A stretch of DNA of 64,000 nucleotides from Catellicoccus marimammalium M35/04/3 (GTDB lineage: Bacteria > Bacillota > Bacilli > Lactobacillales > Catellicoccaceae): assembly GCF_000313915.1 (NCBI RefSeq), contig NZ_AMYT01000017.1:124001-188000 (forward strand), read 5' to 3'. Position numbers and translations under genes: made by a program. Below, piece after piece: positions 5,412-36,077 of the stretch (positions within the stretch are counted from its first letter, which is position 1; the number at the start of each line of letters is the position of its first letter). The notes beneath the pieces were generated by a model. That model saw nothing but the letters and a program-made list of their open reading frames with translations, was not told where the DNA came from and searched no databases.

Positions 5412-6416
5412 TTATTCTGATAAATCGCTACGACGACGTAATTTAGGTAATTCAATCGCTGTTGTTTCTTGGAAATCCAAGTTTTGATTACGTGAGCGAC
5501 GAGTTTGACGAGTCATTTGTTCATTTAATTGTGAACGATCTAACGCCATAGTTTGACCTAAAAATTCATCGTGATTTGCAGATTGTTGTTGCATTAAGCT
5601 AGGTTGTGGATCTTCTTTTTTTGGTGTATCCACTGTTTTTTCTGTACGAGCTGCGCGAGTTTCAGCTACTGGAGCTTCTACTTTTTCTTCTGTTTTTGGT
5701 GCAGCTTCTTTTTTCTCTTCTTTTGTAATATTACGACTTGGTAATTCTGGAGCTTCTTGTTTTTCCACTTTCTTTTGAACATTTGGTTCTTCCAATTTGT
5801 TCATGTCTACTGCATTGCGGAAAGTTTGATGTCCCTCTGTAATATACGCTGAGAATGGCTTTAAAAGGTCTTCCCATTCATCACTTTTCACAATTTCTAA
5901 TTGAGATTCTAATAATAAAGTTAAACGTTGATGGAAAGTACGAGTTTTCTTCTTCAAATCATCAGTTTCACTTGCTAGTGAATTTGCTTTTGCTGTTGCA
6001 TCATTGATTAAGAAGTTTGCACGTTCTGTCGCATCTTTAACCATAGTAGTAGAACGTTCTTTAGCATCTTGTACCATATCTGTTGCTTTTGTTGTCGCAT
6101 CTTCTAGTACTTGATTTGCTTCTAAACGAGCATCTGCAATAATAGCTTCTGCTTCTTTTTGTGCACTTTCTTTTACTTGATCTGCTGTTTCTTGTGCAAC
6201 GATAATACTTTGGTTCAATGCTTCTTTTAATTCATTGAAATAACGTAATTTTTCTTCTAAATGTTTTACATGTTTTTCTAAATCACGATTTTGATTTAAG
6301 ATTCCTTCGTAATCATTGATGACTTGGTCTAAAAAATCATCGACTTCTTCTTGTGAGAAGCCACGCATTTTTGTTGAAAATGTTTTGTTACGAATATCTA
6401 ATGGACTTAATACCAT
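5412..6416 (-). CDS. divIVA: Cell division protein DivIVA
   Basis: Negative-curvature membrane-binding scaffold at poles and septum. The N-terminal domain (residues 1-60) has PLDIRNKTFSTKMRGF followed by SQEEVDDFLDQV, the DivIVA signature. A long coiled coil follows to about residue 165, including near-repeats built on KATDMVQDAKERST and KDATERANFLINDATAKA. The last ~130 residues are a low-complexity Glu/Lys/Pro-rich tail. At 334 residues it is about twice B. subtilis DivIVA but in the range seen in enterococci and streptococci. Start ATG follows GGGGTGAATGAAGA. It sits 19 bp after ylmH and before the ileS T-box. Confidence 0.95.
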   Translation of the reverse strand: MVLSPLDIRNKTFSTKMRGFSQEEVDDFLDQVINDYEGILNQNRDLEKHVKHLEEKLRYFNELKEALNQSIIVAQETADQVKESAQKEAEAIIADARLEANQVLEDATTKATDMVQDAKERSTTMVKDATERANFLINDATAKANSLASETDDLKKKTRTFHQRLTLLLESQLEIVKSDEWEDLLKPFSAYITEGHQTFRNAVDMNKLEEPNVQKKVEKQEAPELPSRNITKEEKKEAAPKTEEKVEAPVAETRAARTEKTVDTPKKEDPQPSLMQQQSANHDEFLGQTMALDRSQLNEQMTRQTRRSRNQNLDFQETTAIELPKLRRRSDLSE

Positions 6417-6435
6417 TCTTCATTCACCCCATTTA

Positions 6436-7221
6436 TTATTTGCGCAAAACGGAATACGTTATGCGATATCGGCCTTTCTTTGTCCGTTCCTTCCCAATTT
6501 CTTTGATCTGACAGCGGCCATAACCACGAACAGAAATTAAATCTTCTTCAGCGACAGAAAAGTCGGCCTTATCTACAGTCATGAAATTTACTTTTACCTT
6601 TTCTGCTTGAATCAGTTTTTTGGAAAGTTGTCTAGATATATTGTAAACAGTTGCCACGATATTATCAAGCCTAAACGAGGTAATCGTTGCATTTTCTGTT
6701 TTACTTCTCTCTTCAGCATCAATTCGCTTTTCTTTTGCGATAGGTTCTAACCGTACACTTTGGTTACTCATTTTAGTGACATTCATACATAAATAAGAAG
6801 TTAAATTTTGACTCACTTCGACTTGAATTTGCTTATCATTCAGATGAATATCCCCAATTTGTTCTCGCTTAATTCCTTGTCCTAACAATGTACCGAGTAC
6901 TTCTCTATGATGTAATTCGACAAATTTTTGTGCGTAATGAATTTCGATTAATTGCGTTTCAAAATCTTCTTCTTCTGGCACAAAATATTCTGGATAAAGA
7001 AGCACTCGTTTTTGTTCACTATGGCGGAATTGACTATAAGCTTGAACAGAAACCCCTCGTTGATGCGCTAAATTTTCGACTAAGTATTGTTCTCTTGGAT
7101 TTAAAAATGCAGTTAACTTTGGTTGGTATTGTTCTTCTACTTGAGTTAACCAACGATCCACTTGTTCTAAAAATGGTCGTTCTTCTGGACGAAAATGTTG
7201 CGCAATATTTTCTTCGACCAT
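6436..7221 (-). CDS. ylmH: YlmH, S4-domain RNA-binding protein
   Basis: 261-residue member of the YlmH family. An N-terminal ~180-residue domain is followed by a C-terminal S4 RNA-binding domain (from about residue 180, with VATVYNISRQLSKKLIQ and later DLISVRGYGR). It is linked to ribosome quality control and cell division in Bacilli; the role is inferred from the family. Its ATG overlaps the ylmG stop codon (TAATG), so translational coupling is likely. The ribosome binding site is only AGGA with an 11-nt spacer, which also suggests coupling. Confidence 0.9.
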   Translation of the reverse strand: MVEENIAQHFRPEERPFLEQVDRWLTQVEEQYQPKLTAFLNPREQYLVENLAHQRGVSVQAYSQFRHSEQKRVLLYPEYFVPEEEDFETQLIEIHYAQKFVELHHREVLGTLLGQGIKREQIGDIHLNDKQIQVEVSQNLTSYLCMNVTKMSNQSVRLEPIAKEKRIDAEERSKTENATITSFRLDNIVATVYNISRQLSKKLIQAEKVKVNFMTVDKADFSVAEEDLISVRGYGRCQIKEIGKERTKKGRYRITYSVLRK

Positions 7222-7508
7222 TAATACATCATTCCTATTAATAAATGATTTGCAATACGAACAATGAGATTTGAACCTAGTTCTAGCACTAAAATTCCTA
7301 CAATTACACTAAAATCTAAGCCAAAAAATTGTAAAGGTAAACGACGGAACAAGTTTAAGTAAGGCTCACAAATACGTACTAAAAAACGACCAATCACTGT
7401 ATTATAAGCATTAGGGAACCAAGATAGTAACGCATAGGCCACTAATAACATGCTATATAAATTGACCGCTTTTAATGTAAAGTTCAATAAAAAGATTAAA
7501 AATCCCAT
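7221..7508 (-). CDS. ylmG: YggT/YlmG family membrane protein
   Basis: A 95-residue integral membrane protein with two hydrophobic segments (about residues 3-25 and 60-88) and the family motif YALLSWFPNAYNTVIGRFLVRICEPYL-like core (residues ~25-50). I chose the ATG at 7508, 7 nt behind AGGTG, over an upstream GTG that lies directly against the trmFO stop. The family is linked to the division cluster in Gram-positives and to nucleoid/division-site distribution in plastids; the precise function is unknown. Here its upstream neighbour is trmFO, not sepF. Confidence 0.9.
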   Translation of the reverse strand: MGFLIFLLNFTLKAVNLYSMLLVAYALLSWFPNAYNTVIGRFLVRICEPYLNLFRRLPLQFFGLDFSVIVGILVLELGSNLIVRIANHLLIGMMY

Positions 7509-7517
7509 GTCTGTCAC

Positions 7518-8834
7518 CTATAATCCTTTTGCTTCTTTAAATTCTTCTAAATCTGCTAGTGCACGACCGGCTAAAGCTTCGTAGCGTTCTTTTTTATCTT
7601 TGATACGATTTGGCAATGCTGGCATAATACCAAAGTTTGCATTCATTGGTTGGAAATGTTTGCCATCAGTATGCGTAATATAATGAGCCATACTTCCCAT
7701 TTGTGTTGTTTCTGGGAAGATCACTGGTTCTTCGCCTTTTGCTAAACGAGCAGCATTCAATCCAGCAACTAAACCACTCGCTGCACTTTCCACATATCCT
7801 TCTACCCCTGTCATTTGACCAGCAAAGAAAAGAGAAGGGCGTTTTTTCGTTTGATACGTTGGTTCTAATAATTTTGGTGAATTCATGAAGGTATTACGAT
7901 GCATCACTCCATAACGAACGATTTGTGCATTTTCTAACCCTGGAATCATTTGGAAGACGCGTTTTTGTTCGCCCCATTTTAAGTGAGTTTGGAAGCCAAC
8001 AATATTATATAAAGAACCAGCTGCATTATCTTGACGTAATTGAACAACAGCATAAGGACGTTTCCCTGTTTTTGGATCTTCTAATCCTACTGGTTTTAAT
8101 GGTCCAAATAACATCGTTTTTTCTCCACGTTTTGCCATTACTTCAATCGGCATACAACCTTCAAAGAATTTTTCTTTTTCAAATTCTTTCAATGGAGCGA
8201 CTTCTGCAGTAATTAATGCTTCATAGAAAGTAGTAAATTCTTCTTTTGTCATTGGACAGTTTAAGTACGCTGCTTCTCCTTTATCATAACGGGATTTCAA
8301 GTATACTTTGTCCATATCAATCGAATCTTTTTCAATAATTGGTGCTGCTGCATCATAGAAGTATAATCCTTCATCTTCATTGAAGGATTTAATATCTTCA
8401 GCTAACGCGTCACTTGTTAAAGGTCCAGAAGCGATGATAACAATTCCTTCTTTTGGAATCTCTGTAACTTCTTCATCATGAACAGTGATGTTCGGATGAT
8501 TACGAACGCGTTCTGTAATCTCTTTTGAGAAGTTTTCACGGTCAACAGCTAAGGCTCCTCCTGCAGGAACGCTATTATGATCTGCTGCTGACATAATGAC
8601 AGAAGATAATTGACGCATTTCTTCTTTTAATAATCCTACAGCGTTTGTAATTTGGTTGGCACGTAAAGAGTTAGAGCACACTAATTCTGCAAATTGATCA
8701 GTTTTATGCGCTGGTGTTTTCTTTTCTTTACGCATTTCATATAAATGCACTTCTACTCCTTGTTCTGCTGCTTGAAAGGCAGCTTCACTTCCTGCTAAAC
8801 CTGCCCCAATAACCGTTACGATTGGTTTTTCCAT
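7518..8834 (-). CDS. trmFO: tRNA (uracil-54,C5)-methyltransferase, folate/FAD-dependent TrmFO
   Basis: Makes ribothymidine at position 54 of tRNA using methylenetetrahydrofolate and FADH2. The N-terminus has the FAD dinucleotide-binding motif [12 protein letters not shown]. Later hallmarks are [28 protein letters not shown] and [16 protein letters not shown], all typical of TrmFO/Gid. About 438 residues from the ATG at 8834, preceded by GAGGG; an upstream GTG would add seven atypical residues. It follows topA by 21 bp. In most Bacilli xerC comes next; here it is ylmG. Confidence 0.95.
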
Positions 8835-8855
8835 TCTATTTTTCCCTCGTTTCAC

Positions 8856-29926: not shown

Positions 29927-30469
29927 TTACATTTCTTCGACAATGACATTATGATTCGTAAATACACAAATATCAGCAGCAACATGTAATGCCTTTTCTG
30001 CAATTTCTTTAGCTGTTAATTCTGCTGCCCCATCTTGTTTTAAAGCACGAGCTGCTGCTAATGCATAGTTCCCACCTGAACCAATCGCTAAAATACCATC
30101 GTCAGGAGCAATCACCTCTCCTGTTCCAGAAACTAAATACATTTCTTTATCATTCATTACGATTAATAGAGCTTCTAATTTTTGCATTGCTTGGTCTTTA
30201 CGCCACTCTTGAGCTAACTCAACAGCAGCGCGTTGCAAATGACCGTTGAACTCATTTAATTTAGCTTCGAATTTTCCTTCTAAATTAAAAGCATCGGCAA
30301 CACTACCAGCGAACCCAACGACCACTTTTCCACCATAAATACGGCGTACTTTACGTGCGGTCCCTTTCATAACGACTTGTTCTCCCATAGTCACTTGACC
30401 ATCTCCAGCCATCGCAAAGTGACCATCTTTTTGTACTGCACAAATAGTTGTTGAATGAAATTCTGACAT
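29927..30469 (-). CDS. hslV: HslV (ClpQ), peptidase subunit of the HslUV protease
   Basis: N-terminal nucleophile protease forming a dodecamer with HslU caps. About 180 residues from ATG 30469, giving [16 protein letters not shown], which aligns with B. subtilis ClpQ/CodW, where Ser2 rather than Thr serves at the N-terminus; [14 protein letters not shown] and [10 protein letters not shown] are conserved. Upstream in-frame codons have no suitable start. The Shine-Dalgarno lies 35 nt from the ATG, beyond a perfect 9-bp hairpin. Confidence 0.96.
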
Positions 30470-30510
30470 TATCTTTATTGTTATTTGTATTAAACAAATA
30501 ACTTCTCCTT
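30470..30510 (-). promoter_or_regulatory. Structured (split) ribosome binding site of hslV
   Basis: Minus strand: AAGGAG (30505-30510), 2 nt, a perfect 9-bp stem GTTATTTGT/ACAAATAAC (30494-30502 and 30480-30488, loop of 5), then 10 A-rich nt and ATG. Without folding the spacing is too large for initiation; with folding it is about 12 nt. Confidence 0.65.
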
Positions 30511-30513
30511 TCT

Positions 30514-31413
30514 TTATTCCTCGGCTCTTGGATGACAAGAGCGATACGTTCTTTGTAGGCTTTCTTTTGTTACATGAGCATAGATTTGTGTGGAAGACAA
30601 ATCAACATGCCCTAGTAATTCTTGAACGGTTCTCATATCGGCTCCATTATTTAATAAATGAGTCGCAAAAGTATGACGTAATTCATGCGGATGAATTTTT
30701 GAATTTAAACTTGAACGCTTAATAATTTGATCAAGTACATAGCGAACCCCTCGATCAGTTAGCGGATCTCCTTTACCATTAACGAAAAGAAATTCATGTT
30801 CTTTTTGCTTCATTAATTTTGGTCTTGCCTGTGATACATAACGCTCAATAGAAGCCATGGCATGATGATTTAAAGGAACATATCTTTGTTTATTTCCTTT
30901 CCCAGTAATTAAAACAAAAGATTGATTCTGTTGAATATCAGAAAGTTGTAAACTAACACACTCACTCACTCGCATGCCACTAGCATAAAGAACTTCCAAT
31001 AGAGCATTATCTCTTAAGCGCAGTGGTTCCGAACCTTCTGTTGCTTGAAATAATGCTTGCATTTCTTTTTCATAAAAGAATTGCGGTAATCGTTTTTCTT
31101 TTTTTTGCATTACTACATAGGAAAAAGGATTTTCTGTAACCTTTCCTTGTTGTAATAAATAACGATAAAAAGAACGCAAACTTGATAAATGACGTTGCAT
31201 CGTGGTTCGTTTATACCCTCTGTCATACATCTCACTAGTATAAATTCTCACATCCCGACTGGTTACTTTAGTTATTTCTAGGTTACCAGTATTTTCCATA
31301 AATTGAAGGAAATCTTTAATATCTCGTTCATAATTTTGGATCGTTTTTTCAGAATAATTACGTTCTACCTTTAAATATAAGAGAAAATCTTTTATTTCTT
31401 GTATTTCTTCCAT
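30514..31413 (-). CDS. xerC: Tyrosine recombinase XerC
   Basis: Site-specific recombinase resolving chromosome dimers at dif. The N-terminal SAM-like domain begins with [21 protein letters not shown]. The catalytic domain has Arg in [22 protein letters not shown] (His-x-x-Arg), a second His in [11 protein letters not shown], and the nucleophile Tyr in IYAHV. 299 residues, normal for XerC. Start ATG behind AAAGGAGAGAAAATA. The xerC-hslV-hslU order is standard, but sepF upstream is not. Confidence 0.95.
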
Positions 31414-31474
31414 TATTTTCTCTCCTTTGGCATATTATAACACTCTTTATTTTAAGTACCAAAAATAATCTTCC

Positions 31475-31945
31475 TTATGAAGTAGCACGGAAACGATTTA
31501 GAAATTCTTCTGTTAGTGAAATTCCTTTTGGCGCACAAATATATTGCTTTTCTTTAAAATGAACAATATCTCCATCCAAGCCATAAACTAATCCGGTTAA
31601 GAAATCTACAATACGAGAAGCAATTTTTTCTTCTGTTTGTACAAAATCGATAATGGCTACTTGTCCTGCCTTTAATTGCAAAGCAATGGTTTGTGTATCA
31701 CGATAAGATAAAGGTTGATAGACTTGCATCACAGGTAATTCTTGATTTTCATCCATACTAGTAGAAAAAATTGCTGCATTTTTCTTTTCTTCCGTACCTT
31801 CAACCTCTTCTTTTTGCGATGCTACTTCCTGTATTTCTTCATCATGATATTCTTGTGCCAATTGTTGATCAATTTCAGCTACAATTTGATCTTTATCTAT
31901 AGGATTGTCTTCTAAATTTGCCCAGTCTAAATGATTTTTATGCAC
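31475..31945 (-). CDS. sepF: Cell division protein SepF, N-terminus atypical
   Basis: The C-terminal SepF domain is clear (from about residue 70: VMQVYQPLSYRDTQTIALQL, AIIDFVQTEEKIASRIVDFL and GLVYGLDGDIVHF), which polymerises and binds the FtsZ tail. The best start is GTG at 31945, 6-7 nt behind GGGGGAG, giving 156 residues starting MHKNHLDWANLEDNP. This lacks the short amphipathic membrane helix (xxFxxFF-type) at the start of other SepF proteins. The frame continues open upstream but only through a terminator hairpin. An ATG at 31949 opens only a 3-codon frame. Follows ftsZ. Confidence 0.85.
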   Translation of the reverse strand: MHKNHLDWANLEDNPIDKDQIVAEIDQQLAQEYHDEEIQEVASQKEEVEGTEEKKNAAIFSTSMDENQELPVMQVYQPLSYRDTQTIALQLKAGQVAIIDFVQTEEKIASRIVDFLTGLVYGLDGDIVHFKEKQYICAPKGISLTEEFLNRFRATS

Positions 31946-31963
31946 CCATTTCTCCCCCTTTTT

Positions 31964-31999
31964 TGAAAAAAAAGAAGTGCTGAACCTCAACACTTCTTT
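31964..31999 (-). terminator. Terminator between ftsZ and sepF
   Basis: Minus strand: GAAGTG-T-TGA/TCA-G-CACTTC hairpin (31974-31996, one mismatch) followed by eight T residues. It starts 8 bp after the ftsZ stop and ends just before the sepF ribosome site, so sepF depends on readthrough. Confidence 0.85.
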
Positions 32000-32007
32000 T
32001 CAATCTA

Positions 32008-33222
32008 TTAGCGATTAAACTTACGGAAAATTGCTGGTGTGTCATCTTTTCCTTTATTGTTTGATGTATGAGTATTCGCTTCAAATTCTTTCTTTTCAAT
32101 CGTACTACTTTCGATACCAGCATCATTTGTACGAGCAGAAGTTTCTTTTTGAATATCCCAATTCCCAAATTGTCCGTTTGTTTTTTCTTTAGCTGTCCCT
32201 AATTCTGTTTCTTTACGTTGTGGTCGTAAATTGTTAGCGGCGGGACGTGCGGACTTTTTTTCTTTATTCTCGATTCCTGTAGCAATTACTGTAACGATGA
32301 TTTCATCTGCTAAGTCAGCATTAATTGAAGTTCCTAAGATGATGTTTACATCGCTTGCAGCTGCAGCTGCCACGATATCAGAAGCTTCTTGTGCTTCGAA
32401 TAATGTCATATCTAAACCACCTGTGATGTTCAATAGGACTTGTTCGGCACCATCGATAGAAGTTTCTAATAATGGAGAAGAAATCGCTAGTTTTGTCGCT
32501 TCTACAACACGATCTTCTCCTACTGCTGTACCAATACCCATTAAAGCTAAACCTTGGTCAGCCATTACAGTACGTACATCGGCAAAGTCAACATTGACTT
32601 GTCCTTCTGAAGTAATTAAGTCAGAGATTCCTTGTACCCCTTGACGTAATACGTTATCTGCTTCACGGAATGCTTCTGTAATTGGTGTTTTCTTATCTAC
32701 TACTTCTAATAAACGGTTATTAGAGATGATTAATAAAGTATCTACATTATCTTTTAATTTAGCAATTCCTTCTGCAGCATATTTACCACGAGTAGAACCT
32801 TCAAATGAGAATGGACGAGTAACCACACCAACAGTTAATGCACCGATTTCTTGAGCGATACGAGCAACGATTGGAGCAGCACCTGTACCTGTACCACCAC
32901 CCATTCCGGCAGTAACAAAGACCATATCTGCGCCTTCTAAAGCAGAGCGTAATTCGTTTTCACTTTCTTCTGCTGCTTTTTCCCCAACTTCTGGTTTAGA
33001 ACCAGCACCTAATCCACGAGTTACTTTAGGTCCTAATTGGATTACGTTTTCTGTTTTTGCTTGTTTTAATGCTTGCACATCTGTATTTGCTAAGTAGAAT
33101 TGTACTCCTTGTACTCCTTCTTCAATCATGCGATTTACGGCATTTCCACCGCCGCCTCCGACACCGACTACTTTAATTACGGCACCGCTATTTTCAAAGT
33201 TATTATCAATACTAAATTCCAT
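32008..33222 (-). CDS. ftsZ: Cell division GTPase FtsZ
   Basis: Tubulin-like GTPase forming the Z-ring. The N-terminal [17 protein letters not shown], tubulin signature [10 protein letters not shown] near residue 105 and T7 loop NVDFADVRT near 205 are intact. The tail carries a linker and ends [12 protein letters not shown], the conserved peptide that binds FtsA and SepF. 404 residues from ATG 33222, with GGAGG 8 nt upstream; an ATG overlapping the ftsA stop is possible but has no ribosome site. Confidence 0.98.
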
Positions 33223-33239
33223 TGTGGTGTCCTCCCTCA

Positions 33240-34586
33240 TTATTCAAAGATATTATCAAAGAAGTTTTTGAAACGAGAAGTTTTTTCTTCTTCCGGTTGT
33301 TCCTCTTCTTTTTTCTTTTCTTCTTTTGGTTGTTCATAGTAGCTATTATCTACAGTTTTTTGTTTTGTAGGTTCTGCTTTTTTCGCCGCTACTGTTTCTT
33401 TTTTAGGTGTTGCTTTTGGTGCAACTGGTTTTCCGTTCACGATACGATCAATATCTGTTAAATTGGCAGTATATTCGACAATCGCTAATACACTAGAAAA
33501 CATTGGATTACGTAATCCCATATGATTTGGTACATGTAAACGAATACTACTATCAATATCAAAAATTTCTGTCGCTAAATCAAGAATGCCAGGGATGCTA
33601 GCTGCGCCTCCAGTTAAGACGATTCCTCCAGCAAGAGATAAAGCGTCGATTTCTGATAAGATTTGTTTCATATGTTCAAAAATTTCTGCTTCACGTGCTT
33701 CAATAATTTCTGCTAAGTAATGTTCGGTTACCATCACAGGATCATTTTGACCAATCACATCTACTGGAAAGTCTTCTGTTTCTGAAGCTTCTTTCGCATA
33801 AGCATAACCGTAGTTATTTTTTAATCCTTCTGCATTTGTCATTGAAGTATTTAACACAAGAGAGATATCTTTTGTGACATTATCGCCACCTTCTTGTTCT
33901 ACATGAGTGAATTTCATTTCATCTTCATAAATTACTGTGGCAGTTGTTTGACCAGCACCCATGTCAATCACTGTAGTACCAAATTCTTTTTCGCCATTTG
34001 GTAAAATGGTTTCTACTAATGCTAATGGTGTGATGACCATTTTATCAATTTCTAGTCCTGCACGTTTCACACAGGTTTCAATATTGTGAACAATTGTTTT
34101 TGGACCTGTGAATAATAATCCTTTCATTTCTAAACGTACACCGACCATGCCACGTGGATCTTTAATTCCATCAAATCCATCTACTTTAAAGCTTTGAGGT
34201 ACGATAGAAATAATTTCTCTTTCTGGTGGGATAGAACGAACCATAGAAGCAGATGCAACATTGTACACATCTTCCACACCAATTTCTTGTGAATCAGGAT
34301 TTACTGCAATCATTCCTTCACAAGGAATTACCTCTACTTGATTTCCAGGTAACCCAACAGCCACCTCTTTAATTTCAATTCCTGATTTCATTTCAGCTTG
34401 TTTTACTGCTTTTTGAATAGAAGATACTGTTTCTTCAATATCTACCACTATTCCACGATCTAAACCTTCTGATTTGGCGTCTCCTACGCCAATAATATTC
34501 ATTTGACCTTCCACATATTCGGCTACTACGACTTTAACGGAAGCAGTACCAATATCTAAGCCGACATACATTCCTGATTTTGCCAT
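33240..34586 (-). CDS. ftsA: Cell division protein FtsA
   Basis: Actin-like membrane tether of FtsZ. N-terminal [17 protein letters not shown] is the phosphate-1 motif; [16 protein letters not shown] and [11 protein letters not shown] are the other nucleotide-binding motifs. A Lys/Glu/Pro-rich linker (about 385-435) leads to an amphipathic C-terminal helix [12 protein letters not shown] for membrane binding. 448 residues, on the long side because of the linker. Start ATG behind GGAGGGAACCTTTC. Confidence 0.97.
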
Positions 34587-34715
34587 GAAAGGTTCCCTCC
34601 TAAATTTTTTAATTACAACATCTTATTGATCGATGATTATTATATCTTACTTTTATCATAGTATCATATTTATAAGGAAAAGAGAAAGCGTTGTTTCTTT
34701 ATTTTCGCAAATTTC
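34587..34715 (-). promoter_or_regulatory. divIB-ftsA intergenic region with likely ftsAZ promoter
   Basis: 129 bp. A perfect TATAAT on the minus strand (34639-34644) about 50 bp before ftsA suggests a promoter giving extra ftsA-ftsZ transcription, as is common. The -35 is weak, so this is tentative. Confidence 0.4.
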
Positions 34716-36077
34716 TCAATTTTCTGGAATTACAATTTCCATTGTCGAAGAACTACTTGTTTCTGAATCTGTTGGTTGAGTTTCAGAAGCATTTAAATTT
34801 TTTCGCTCTGTATCATTATTTCCATATGGATAAGAGTAAATCCCTACTTCCATATCAACAATTCCTTTGTTCTTCATTTGTTTTGCTACTTGCTCATAGT
34901 AAGGAAGTTGTTCTTCCATTTCTGAACTACTTACTTTCACTTGATTTCCATCTTTCATATATAAAGTTAGTAATTCTGGATTACTTTTTGTTGGCGTTAA
35001 CGTAATTTGTTGCACTAAAGAACGAATTTTTTCTGGTAAGTGCATATAAGCATAAATCACTGATTTTAATAATTCACCAGATTTGAAATCGGCATAAATA
35101 ATTCCTTCTGGCTTGTTTTTAATCGTTTCTTTTAAAATAGTCCCATTTTCTAAGATAGGGGCATATTTCACTTTATCCACAATTACATACCCTGCTAAAG
35201 GATATTCTTCTACATGAATGGTAAAATCATTGAGATGATCTAAGGTAATATCTACTTTTTTAATTCCAGGATACGCTTTTTGAATTCGTTGTTCTACTTC
35301 ATCGCGACCAAAATATTGATGCCATAAACGCTCTCCTGGCTTAAAGTTTGCCGTTTTGATAATTTTATTACTATTCATATATTTATCTCCTACGACTTGG
35401 ACTTCGTGTAGGTTACTCAATGGACTAGCATAATACAGAATAATTAATAAAGAAATCGTAAAAAAGACAATAAATGCTGTGGTTTGCCAACGAACCTTTT
35501 TACTTAATTTTGGTTTCTTTAATTTTTGCTTTTCTTCTTTTAATCGCTGTTCTTTCTTTTCTTGTTCTGCTTCTTTATCCAACAAAGATAATTCTTTTTG
35601 ATAATTAGATTCTTCCTTTTTATCCTTCGTTGGCTCTGCTTTGACCACCTCAATCGTTGGTTCTTTTCCTTCTTTTTTATTTTCTGATTTTGATGAAGAA
35701 GAATTTACTTTCTTTTCTTTGTTTATTTCTTTTTCCTTTGTCTTTTCAACAACTGCAATTGTTGGTTTATCTTCTGGTTCTTTTTGCTCTTCTGTCCAAT
35801 CTATTTCATCTAATTCAGAAGGCAATAAATAACGTTTTACTCGGCCATCTTTCTTTTTCACAGGAGTAGGAAAAATATCTTCCGGCGTTTCCACCGTAGT
35901 AGGCAGAGATTGTTCTTTTTCTTCTTCTTTTGTAGAGCTATGTTTCTTTAAATATTTGACATTTTCTTTTTGCCAAGGAGAAAGACTTTCTTCTTCTTTT
36001 TCTTTCTCTTCTTCCTCTTTTTTCATCTCTACTTCTTTTTCTTCTTTTTTCTTCCTAGAAGAGAGAAATCGCTTCAT
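34716..36077 (-). CDS. divIB: Cell division protein DivIB (FtsQ)
   Basis: Bitopic divisome protein working with FtsL and DivIC. A long charged cytoplasmic N-terminus (about 1-195, rich in KEEEKEKEEE-like runs) precedes one transmembrane segment (TAFIVFFTISLLIILYYA) and a POTRA domain (LHEVQVVGDKYMNSNKIIK...), then a beta domain and a Ser/Thr-rich tail. 453 residues; the N-terminal part makes it much longer than the B. subtilis protein but similar to other Lactobacillales. Start ATG behind AAAGGAGGATTTCT. Confidence 0.92.
   Translation of the reverse strand: MKRFLSSRKKKEEKEVEMKKEEEEKEKEEESLSPWQKENVKYLKKHSSTKEEEKEQSLPTTVETPEDIFPTPVKKKDGRVKRYLLPSELDEIDWTEEQKEPEDKPTIAVVEKTKEKEINKEKKVNSSSSKSENKKEGKEPTIEVVKAEPTKDKKEESNYQKELSLLDKEAEQEKKEQRLKEEKQKLKKPKLSKKVRWQTTAFIVFFTISLLIILYYASPLSNLHEVQVVGDKYMNSNKIIKTANFKPGERLWHQYFGRDEVEQRIQKAYPGIKKVDITLDHLNDFTIHVEEYPLAGYVIVDKVKYAPILENGTILKETIKNKPEGIIYADFKSGELLKSVIYAYMHLPEKIRSLVQQITLTPTKSNPELLTLYMKDGNQVKVSSSEMEEQLPYYEQVAKQMKNKGIVDMEVGIYSYPYGNNDTERKNLNASETQPTDSETSSSSTMEIVIPEN

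Follow-up and report, generated by a model that had tools for sequence, protein, structure and literature searches.

Gene content and order at the sepF locus

The DNA analysed here, called the window throughout, is a 64,000-nucleotide stretch covering bases 124001-188000 of a contig of the gut bacterium Catellicoccus marimammalium M35/04/3, whose small genome is 1.28 Mb in 23 contigs. The draft genome of C. marimammalium CCUG 49459T was reported as 1,290,194 bases from Illumina and 454 sequencing at 235-fold coverage (PMC3569323), and PMC10408702 describes Catellicoccaceae with Catellicoccus as sole genus. On the minus strand of the window lie ftsA (33240-34586; PF14450), ftsZ (32008-33240; PF00091 and PF12327) and, directly behind them, sepF (31475-31945), a frame of 156 codons from GTG 31945 to its stop that matches PF04472 with 66.5 bits at residues 75-143. 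This place behind ftsZ is presumably also that of sepF in B. subtilis. A profile search of the whole genome found PF04472 only at this gene, and a second sepF copy was rejected on that count. Across the order, 39 of 395 genomes gave no SepF match at E <= 0.01, and 17 of the 20 listed belong to one family (f5).

Downstream, sepF adjoins a xerC-like integrase gene (30514-31413, minus strand; PF00589), where the gene order breaks. Of 22 Enterococcus, Vagococcus and Lactobacillaceae loci, 21 carry ylmH and divIVA behind sepF (L034 being short), whereas in the window ylmG, ylmH and divIVA (5412-7517, minus strand; PF02325, PF17774 and PF05103) are about 24 kb away. Two gene junctions of the window (7227-8855 and 30514-31945) appear swapped, one reading a GIDA-family gene (trmFO) and then ylmG-ylmH-divIVA, the other sepF and then xerC-hslV-hslU. 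We take trmFO-xerC-hslVU to be the usual order, and the junctions now seem to be separated by a relocated segment of about 24 kb. The gap between sepF and xerC also holds a promoter-like site (31434-31462, minus strand), a TATAAT preceded by TG with 10 of 12 matches, in a scan whose total was at the level of shuffled sequence.

Start site and reading frame of sepF

Read on the minus strand, the sepF frame runs without a break from GTG 31993 to its stop at 31475. Duplex energies with what we take to be the 16S tail sequence single out GTG 31945, whose ribosome site AAGGGGG (31960-31954) gives -12.0 kcal/mol, against -5.7 at TTG 31990 and -3.0 at GTG 31993. This value equals or exceeds in strength those of 41 of 47 other genes in the window (median -10.3 kcal/mol, with ATG as the start in 43), although the starts of those genes were themselves picked by ribosome site and their values are biased toward strong duplexes; only 14 of 3000 random positions match it. 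The first-pass annotation, made from the sequence by eye, had named GTG 31945 as the only start with a ribosome site and had noticed a nearby ATG opening a three-codon frame; the ATG reads as described. This short frame, ATG GGT GCA TAA (31938-31949, minus strand), overlaps the sepF start, and its ATG 31949 shares the Shine-Dalgarno sequence AAGGGGGAG (31952-31960, minus strand), and with it the -12.0 kcal/mol site, with GTG 31945. With one base fewer in the G run beside the start, ATG 31949 would join the same residues, which makes the N-terminus independent of that detail.

A hairpin in the ftsZ-sepF gap

The 62 nt that separate GTG 31945 from the end of ftsZ are mostly occupied by a hairpin resembling an intrinsic terminator (31969-32001, minus strand). 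Its 15-bp stem (32001-31987 paired with 31983-31969) runs into a T tract; the hairpin alone is worth -17.0 kcal/mol and the stretch -19.7 kcal/mol, with a z of -4.0 and none of 200 shuffles equally stable. A terminator scan of 30400-34800 did not have the hairpin among its matches, probably because the stem consumes the T tract. No space for a promoter was seen between the hairpin and the sepF start, and a consensus scan gave one weak promoter-like match within ftsZ (32099-32071), among 15 sites found where shuffles average 15.9.

ylmE was said to be absent from this gap, and it is; in Enterococcus the ftsZ-sepF gap is about 560-770 nt, a length that fits ylmE. The possibility that ylmE lies elsewhere in the genome was rejected, since the sole match to PF01168 (Ala_racemase_N) is a 383-residue frame that reads as an alanine racemase, and no ylmE/YggS-type protein was found by PF01168 in the whole genome.

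Among 25 loci with ftsZ directly before sepF, the window's included, a hairpin followed by T's occupies the gap in six (the window's, L042, L046, L052, L053 and L127, with that of L046 weaker). Like the window, the other five lack ylmE in the gap, but unlike it they keep the N-terminal helix of SepF. Judged across these loci, the hairpin and the missing ylmE are ordinary features. The first-pass annotation had placed the terminator hairpin on the DNA where the SepF helix would be encoded, and only half of this survives. The hairpin is real, but it does not replace the helix, given that 5 of 24 other loci have both; relatives code the helix from the start codon onward, and because of this the hairpin DNA is not the helix's place.

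The N-terminus of SepF

The place of the helix, which normally holds this cell-division protein to the membrane, is instead the first 13 codons of sepF (31907-31945, minus strand), in which neither the helix matrix, the profile HMM nor the predicted structure recovers a helix motif. The N-terminus was compared with those of 124 distinct SepF proteins, ten of them from Brevibacterium, which is not a member of Lactobacillales; the window's own locus, present as L001 and L112, was excluded from the counts. The automatic choice of starts by ribosome site misplaced some relatives (L033, L151, L162, L182 and L103 are examples), and the L033 row of alignments A1 and A2 is missing its N-terminus. Each of the comparison rows inspected has a hydrophobic, mostly FF-bearing stretch near the N-terminus. 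On the N-terminal HMM the window protein scores -1.2 bits from GTG 31945 and -0.5 bits from GTG 31993, while the relatives have a median of 30.9 bits and a 5% point of 8.0; the score from GTG 31945 was reached by 320 of 500 shuffles (470 of 500 with a reported score). A 12-residue helix matrix gives -4.5 bits from GTG 31945, a value reached by 501 of 5000 shuffles and by 6 of 30 other N-termini in the window, and 0.3 bits in the frame from GTG 31993 (444 of 5000 shuffles as high). With every candidate start allowed, none of the 124 relatives scores below 5.1 and 113 reach 10 or more, against a best of 0.3 for the window; as the matrix and HMM were built from the relatives they score, the size of this gap is partly in-sample. 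A match between the N-terminus and the B. subtilis helix, made by eye, was dropped, as the HMM and matrix scores were not above those of shuffles.

The AlphaFold model of the window SepF has coil to residue 17 and a low-confidence helix at 18-30, while an Enterococcus SepF run as a control has a helix at residues 3-10, with low N-terminal confidence in both models (block means 50-59). A linker of about 70 residues, with block-mean pLDDT below 60 and predicted to be disordered, precedes the core. Charge per residue ahead of the core is -0.211, the most acidic of 125 and below the minimum of -0.187 among the 124 relatives, a comparison that rests on automatically chosen starts, and the net charge of the first 13 residues is -2 against a median of +1. 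Generic amphipathicity is the exception, as the N-terminus scores 0.69 where 123 relatives have a 5% point of 0.67 and a median of 1.00; by this borderline measure the sequence from GTG 31945 would count as weak but inside the normal range. The earlier reading of an acidic N-terminus without the usual amphipathic helix is thus borne out by charge, HMM, helix matrix and predicted coil, and on sequence grounds helix loss in SepF is well supported.

The SepF core and its contact with FtsZ

The C-terminal domain had been described as well kept, and we agree. Its PF04472 score stands at 66.5 bits against a cut-off of 27, the predicted core has a mean pLDDT of 91-97 over blocks 71-140, and the top Foldseek matches of the model are SepF structures of B. 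subtilis, C. glutamicum and archaea (3zih, 6sat and 8hzq). Solved SepF structures likewise match the PF04472 profile. Against B. subtilis SepF (3zih) the rmsd is 0.8-0.9 with 29% core identity in the structural alignment; the two share the core fold and the glycine of dimer-dimer contacts (G109 in B. subtilis, G118 here, and a glycine in 124 of 124 relatives), but the N-terminal amphipathic helix is present only in B. subtilis. G125 is retained as well, along with 10 of 15 near-invariant core positions. Five relatives also differ at 5 of these positions and one at 7, so by this count the aligned core is no outlier.

Identity tells of faster change. The window SepF core is on average 36% identical to those of Enterococcaceae (L036, L032 and others in Enterococcus, where the helix is present), compared with 48% between Enterococcaceae and Lactobacillaceae, while the same two figures are 73% and 66% for FtsZ and 62% and 51% for FtsA; the first group comprised nine sequences from Enterococcus or Vagococcus, the second thirteen from Lactobacillaceae. 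Going by these identities, SepF alone among SepF, FtsZ and FtsA would be evolving faster here, with the f4 SepF proteins, which have equally low Pfam scores and retain the helix, outside the comparison.

Both sides of the FtsZ contact differ. At the position of C. glutamicum K125 the window SepF has H, where 121 of 124 relatives have R or K, and at that of F131 it has Y, where 118 have F and 6 have Y, four of these six carriers being among the five f4 sequences sampled. The FtsZ tail (32008-32046) has no P-x-F, a motif carried by 102 of the 103 distinct comparison tails and by all 58 from Lactobacillales loci. The conserved contacts of the FtsZ tail in C. glutamicum are D, P and F, and FtsZ binding was undetectable when SepF K125 and F131 were both mutated, to E and A (PMC7118173). 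The two-sided change, as read from the alignments, would fit relaxed constraint or a rewired contact.

FtsA had been put forward as the protein that does the anchoring, and this is plausible, given that its C-terminal amphipathic helix is kept, with a score of 13.6 bits when read against the matrix of the SepF helix. EzrA is encoded at full length in the genome. For B. subtilis, PMC11790237 states that single inactivation of such proteins is tolerated, but that cells lacking both SepF and FtsA are very sick or inviable.

Weighing the explanations

We favour the reading that the gene is a true orthologue of sepF, started at GTG 31945 (or ATG 31949), that its product has lost the N-terminal amphipathic helix and that FtsA tethers the ring, and we put the probability of this at roughly 0.57. 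The main rival is decay: with a reduced genome and FtsA present, constraint on SepF would be relaxed, and the protein would have lost the helix together with part of the FtsZ contact and be heading for complete loss. The fast evolution of the core, the H at a position that is otherwise almost always R or K, the FtsZ tail without P-x-F and the lack of SepF from 39 of the order's 395 genomes would all fit decay. However, the frame is intact with a strong ribosome site at GTG 31945, the core fold is predicted with confidence, G118, G125 and 10 of 15 near-invariant positions are kept, the Tyr at the second contact position is shared by 6 of 124 relatives, including four of the five f4 sequences sampled, and f4 proteins with equally low Pfam scores still keep the helix. 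Taken together, this makes decay unlikely, though it deserves more weight than any of the readings that follow.

The first residues of SepF, MHKNHLDWANL, could instead form a membrane helix that has degenerated yet still functions, with Trp as its anchor. The generic score of 0.69 and a moment of 0.38 are like those of the weakest normal helices, and in the MAFFT alignment W8-A9 falls beneath the FF pair, a placement that end-anchoring favours. With a profile similarity not above shuffles, a net charge of -2 over 13 residues where the median is +1, and coil in the predicted model, we consider a working helix improbable. The first-pass annotation had offered the alternative that the true N-terminus is encoded across the hairpin, with translation from GTG 31993 or TTG 31990. 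The frame is indeed open and the segment is basic with an FF and a generic amphipathicity of 1.51-1.58, above the median of 1.00, but otherwise the alternative is poorly supported: the FF derives from the T run, the helix-matrix score of 0.3 is matched by 444 of 5000 shuffles, and both starts lie inside the 5' arm of the hairpin and have weak ribosome sites (-3.0 and -5.7 kcal/mol) with a strong one just downstream. We regard such an upstream start as very improbable. A sequencing or assembly error that hides a normal N-terminus would be helped by the hybrid Illumina and 454 assembly (PMC3569323) and by the T run and G run beside the start, yet the coverage was 235-fold (PMC3569323), the 62-nt gap between ftsZ and the GTG shows no usual helix in any of its three frames, and a one-base slip in the G run puts ATG 31949 in frame with the following residues unchanged, which leaves error with the smallest chance of all. 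About as improbable as the upstream start is an exchange of ends, in which SepF would contact the membrane through a C-terminal helix, SLTEEFLNRFRATS, in an FtsA-like layout with the N-terminus as an acidic arm. The C-terminal tail has a net charge of +1 (relatives: median -3, 95% point 0, maximum 2) and a best moment of 0.596 that 8 of 124 relatives reach, and the changed FtsZ tail and SepF pocket would fit a rewired contact, but the tail's charge-weighted score ranks only 34 of 125, which counts against swapped ends.

Proposed role of a helix-less SepF

Under the favoured reading, with the helix of SepF gone and FtsA holding the ring, translation would begin at GTG 31945; were the G run one base off, the start would be ATG 31949 and the N-terminus nearly the same. 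Expression would depend on read-through of the ftsZ terminator, as we infer, or on a promoter inside ftsZ. From the helix loss we also infer that SepF no longer binds the membrane itself and that FtsA tethers the division ring through its C-terminal helix, the ring probably relying on FtsA as the other anchor. SepF, if active at all, may then serve FtsZ as a partner in the cytosol, through a contact that has been weakened or remodelled.

The closest laboratory counterpart is the SepF-deltaML construct of C. glutamicum, an organism that uses SepF only (PMC11790237). Without membrane helix and linker, C. glutamicum SepF retains FtsZ binding and bundling but does not complement (PMC7118173). The window SepF resembles this construct in being a core without a membrane helix, and differs from it in keeping an acidic linker, in having FtsA beside it and in its H and Y at the K125 and F131 positions.

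As for close relatives, a search of the family returned this genome alone, protein scans of genome contigs and viral contigs gave no relative, and a plasmid search gave 9 records, all below 60% identity. The nearest neighbours by FtsZ, among the matches listed, are Enterococcus at up to 72% identity. A literature search for SepF without its helix, covering few of the subscription papers, found none by title, and SepF and Catellicoccus appear together in no paper searched.

The protein is a lineage-specific variant of a known one. PMC7118173 describes the helix-linker-core plan of SepF as highly conserved, and PMC11790237 counts SepF as one of the two proteins that anchor the Z-ring to the membrane. 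If true, a natural SepF without a helix alongside FtsA would separate bundling from anchoring without a laboratory mutant, and such a protein could be a step from a full SepF to its absence, as in 39 of the 395 genomes of the order.
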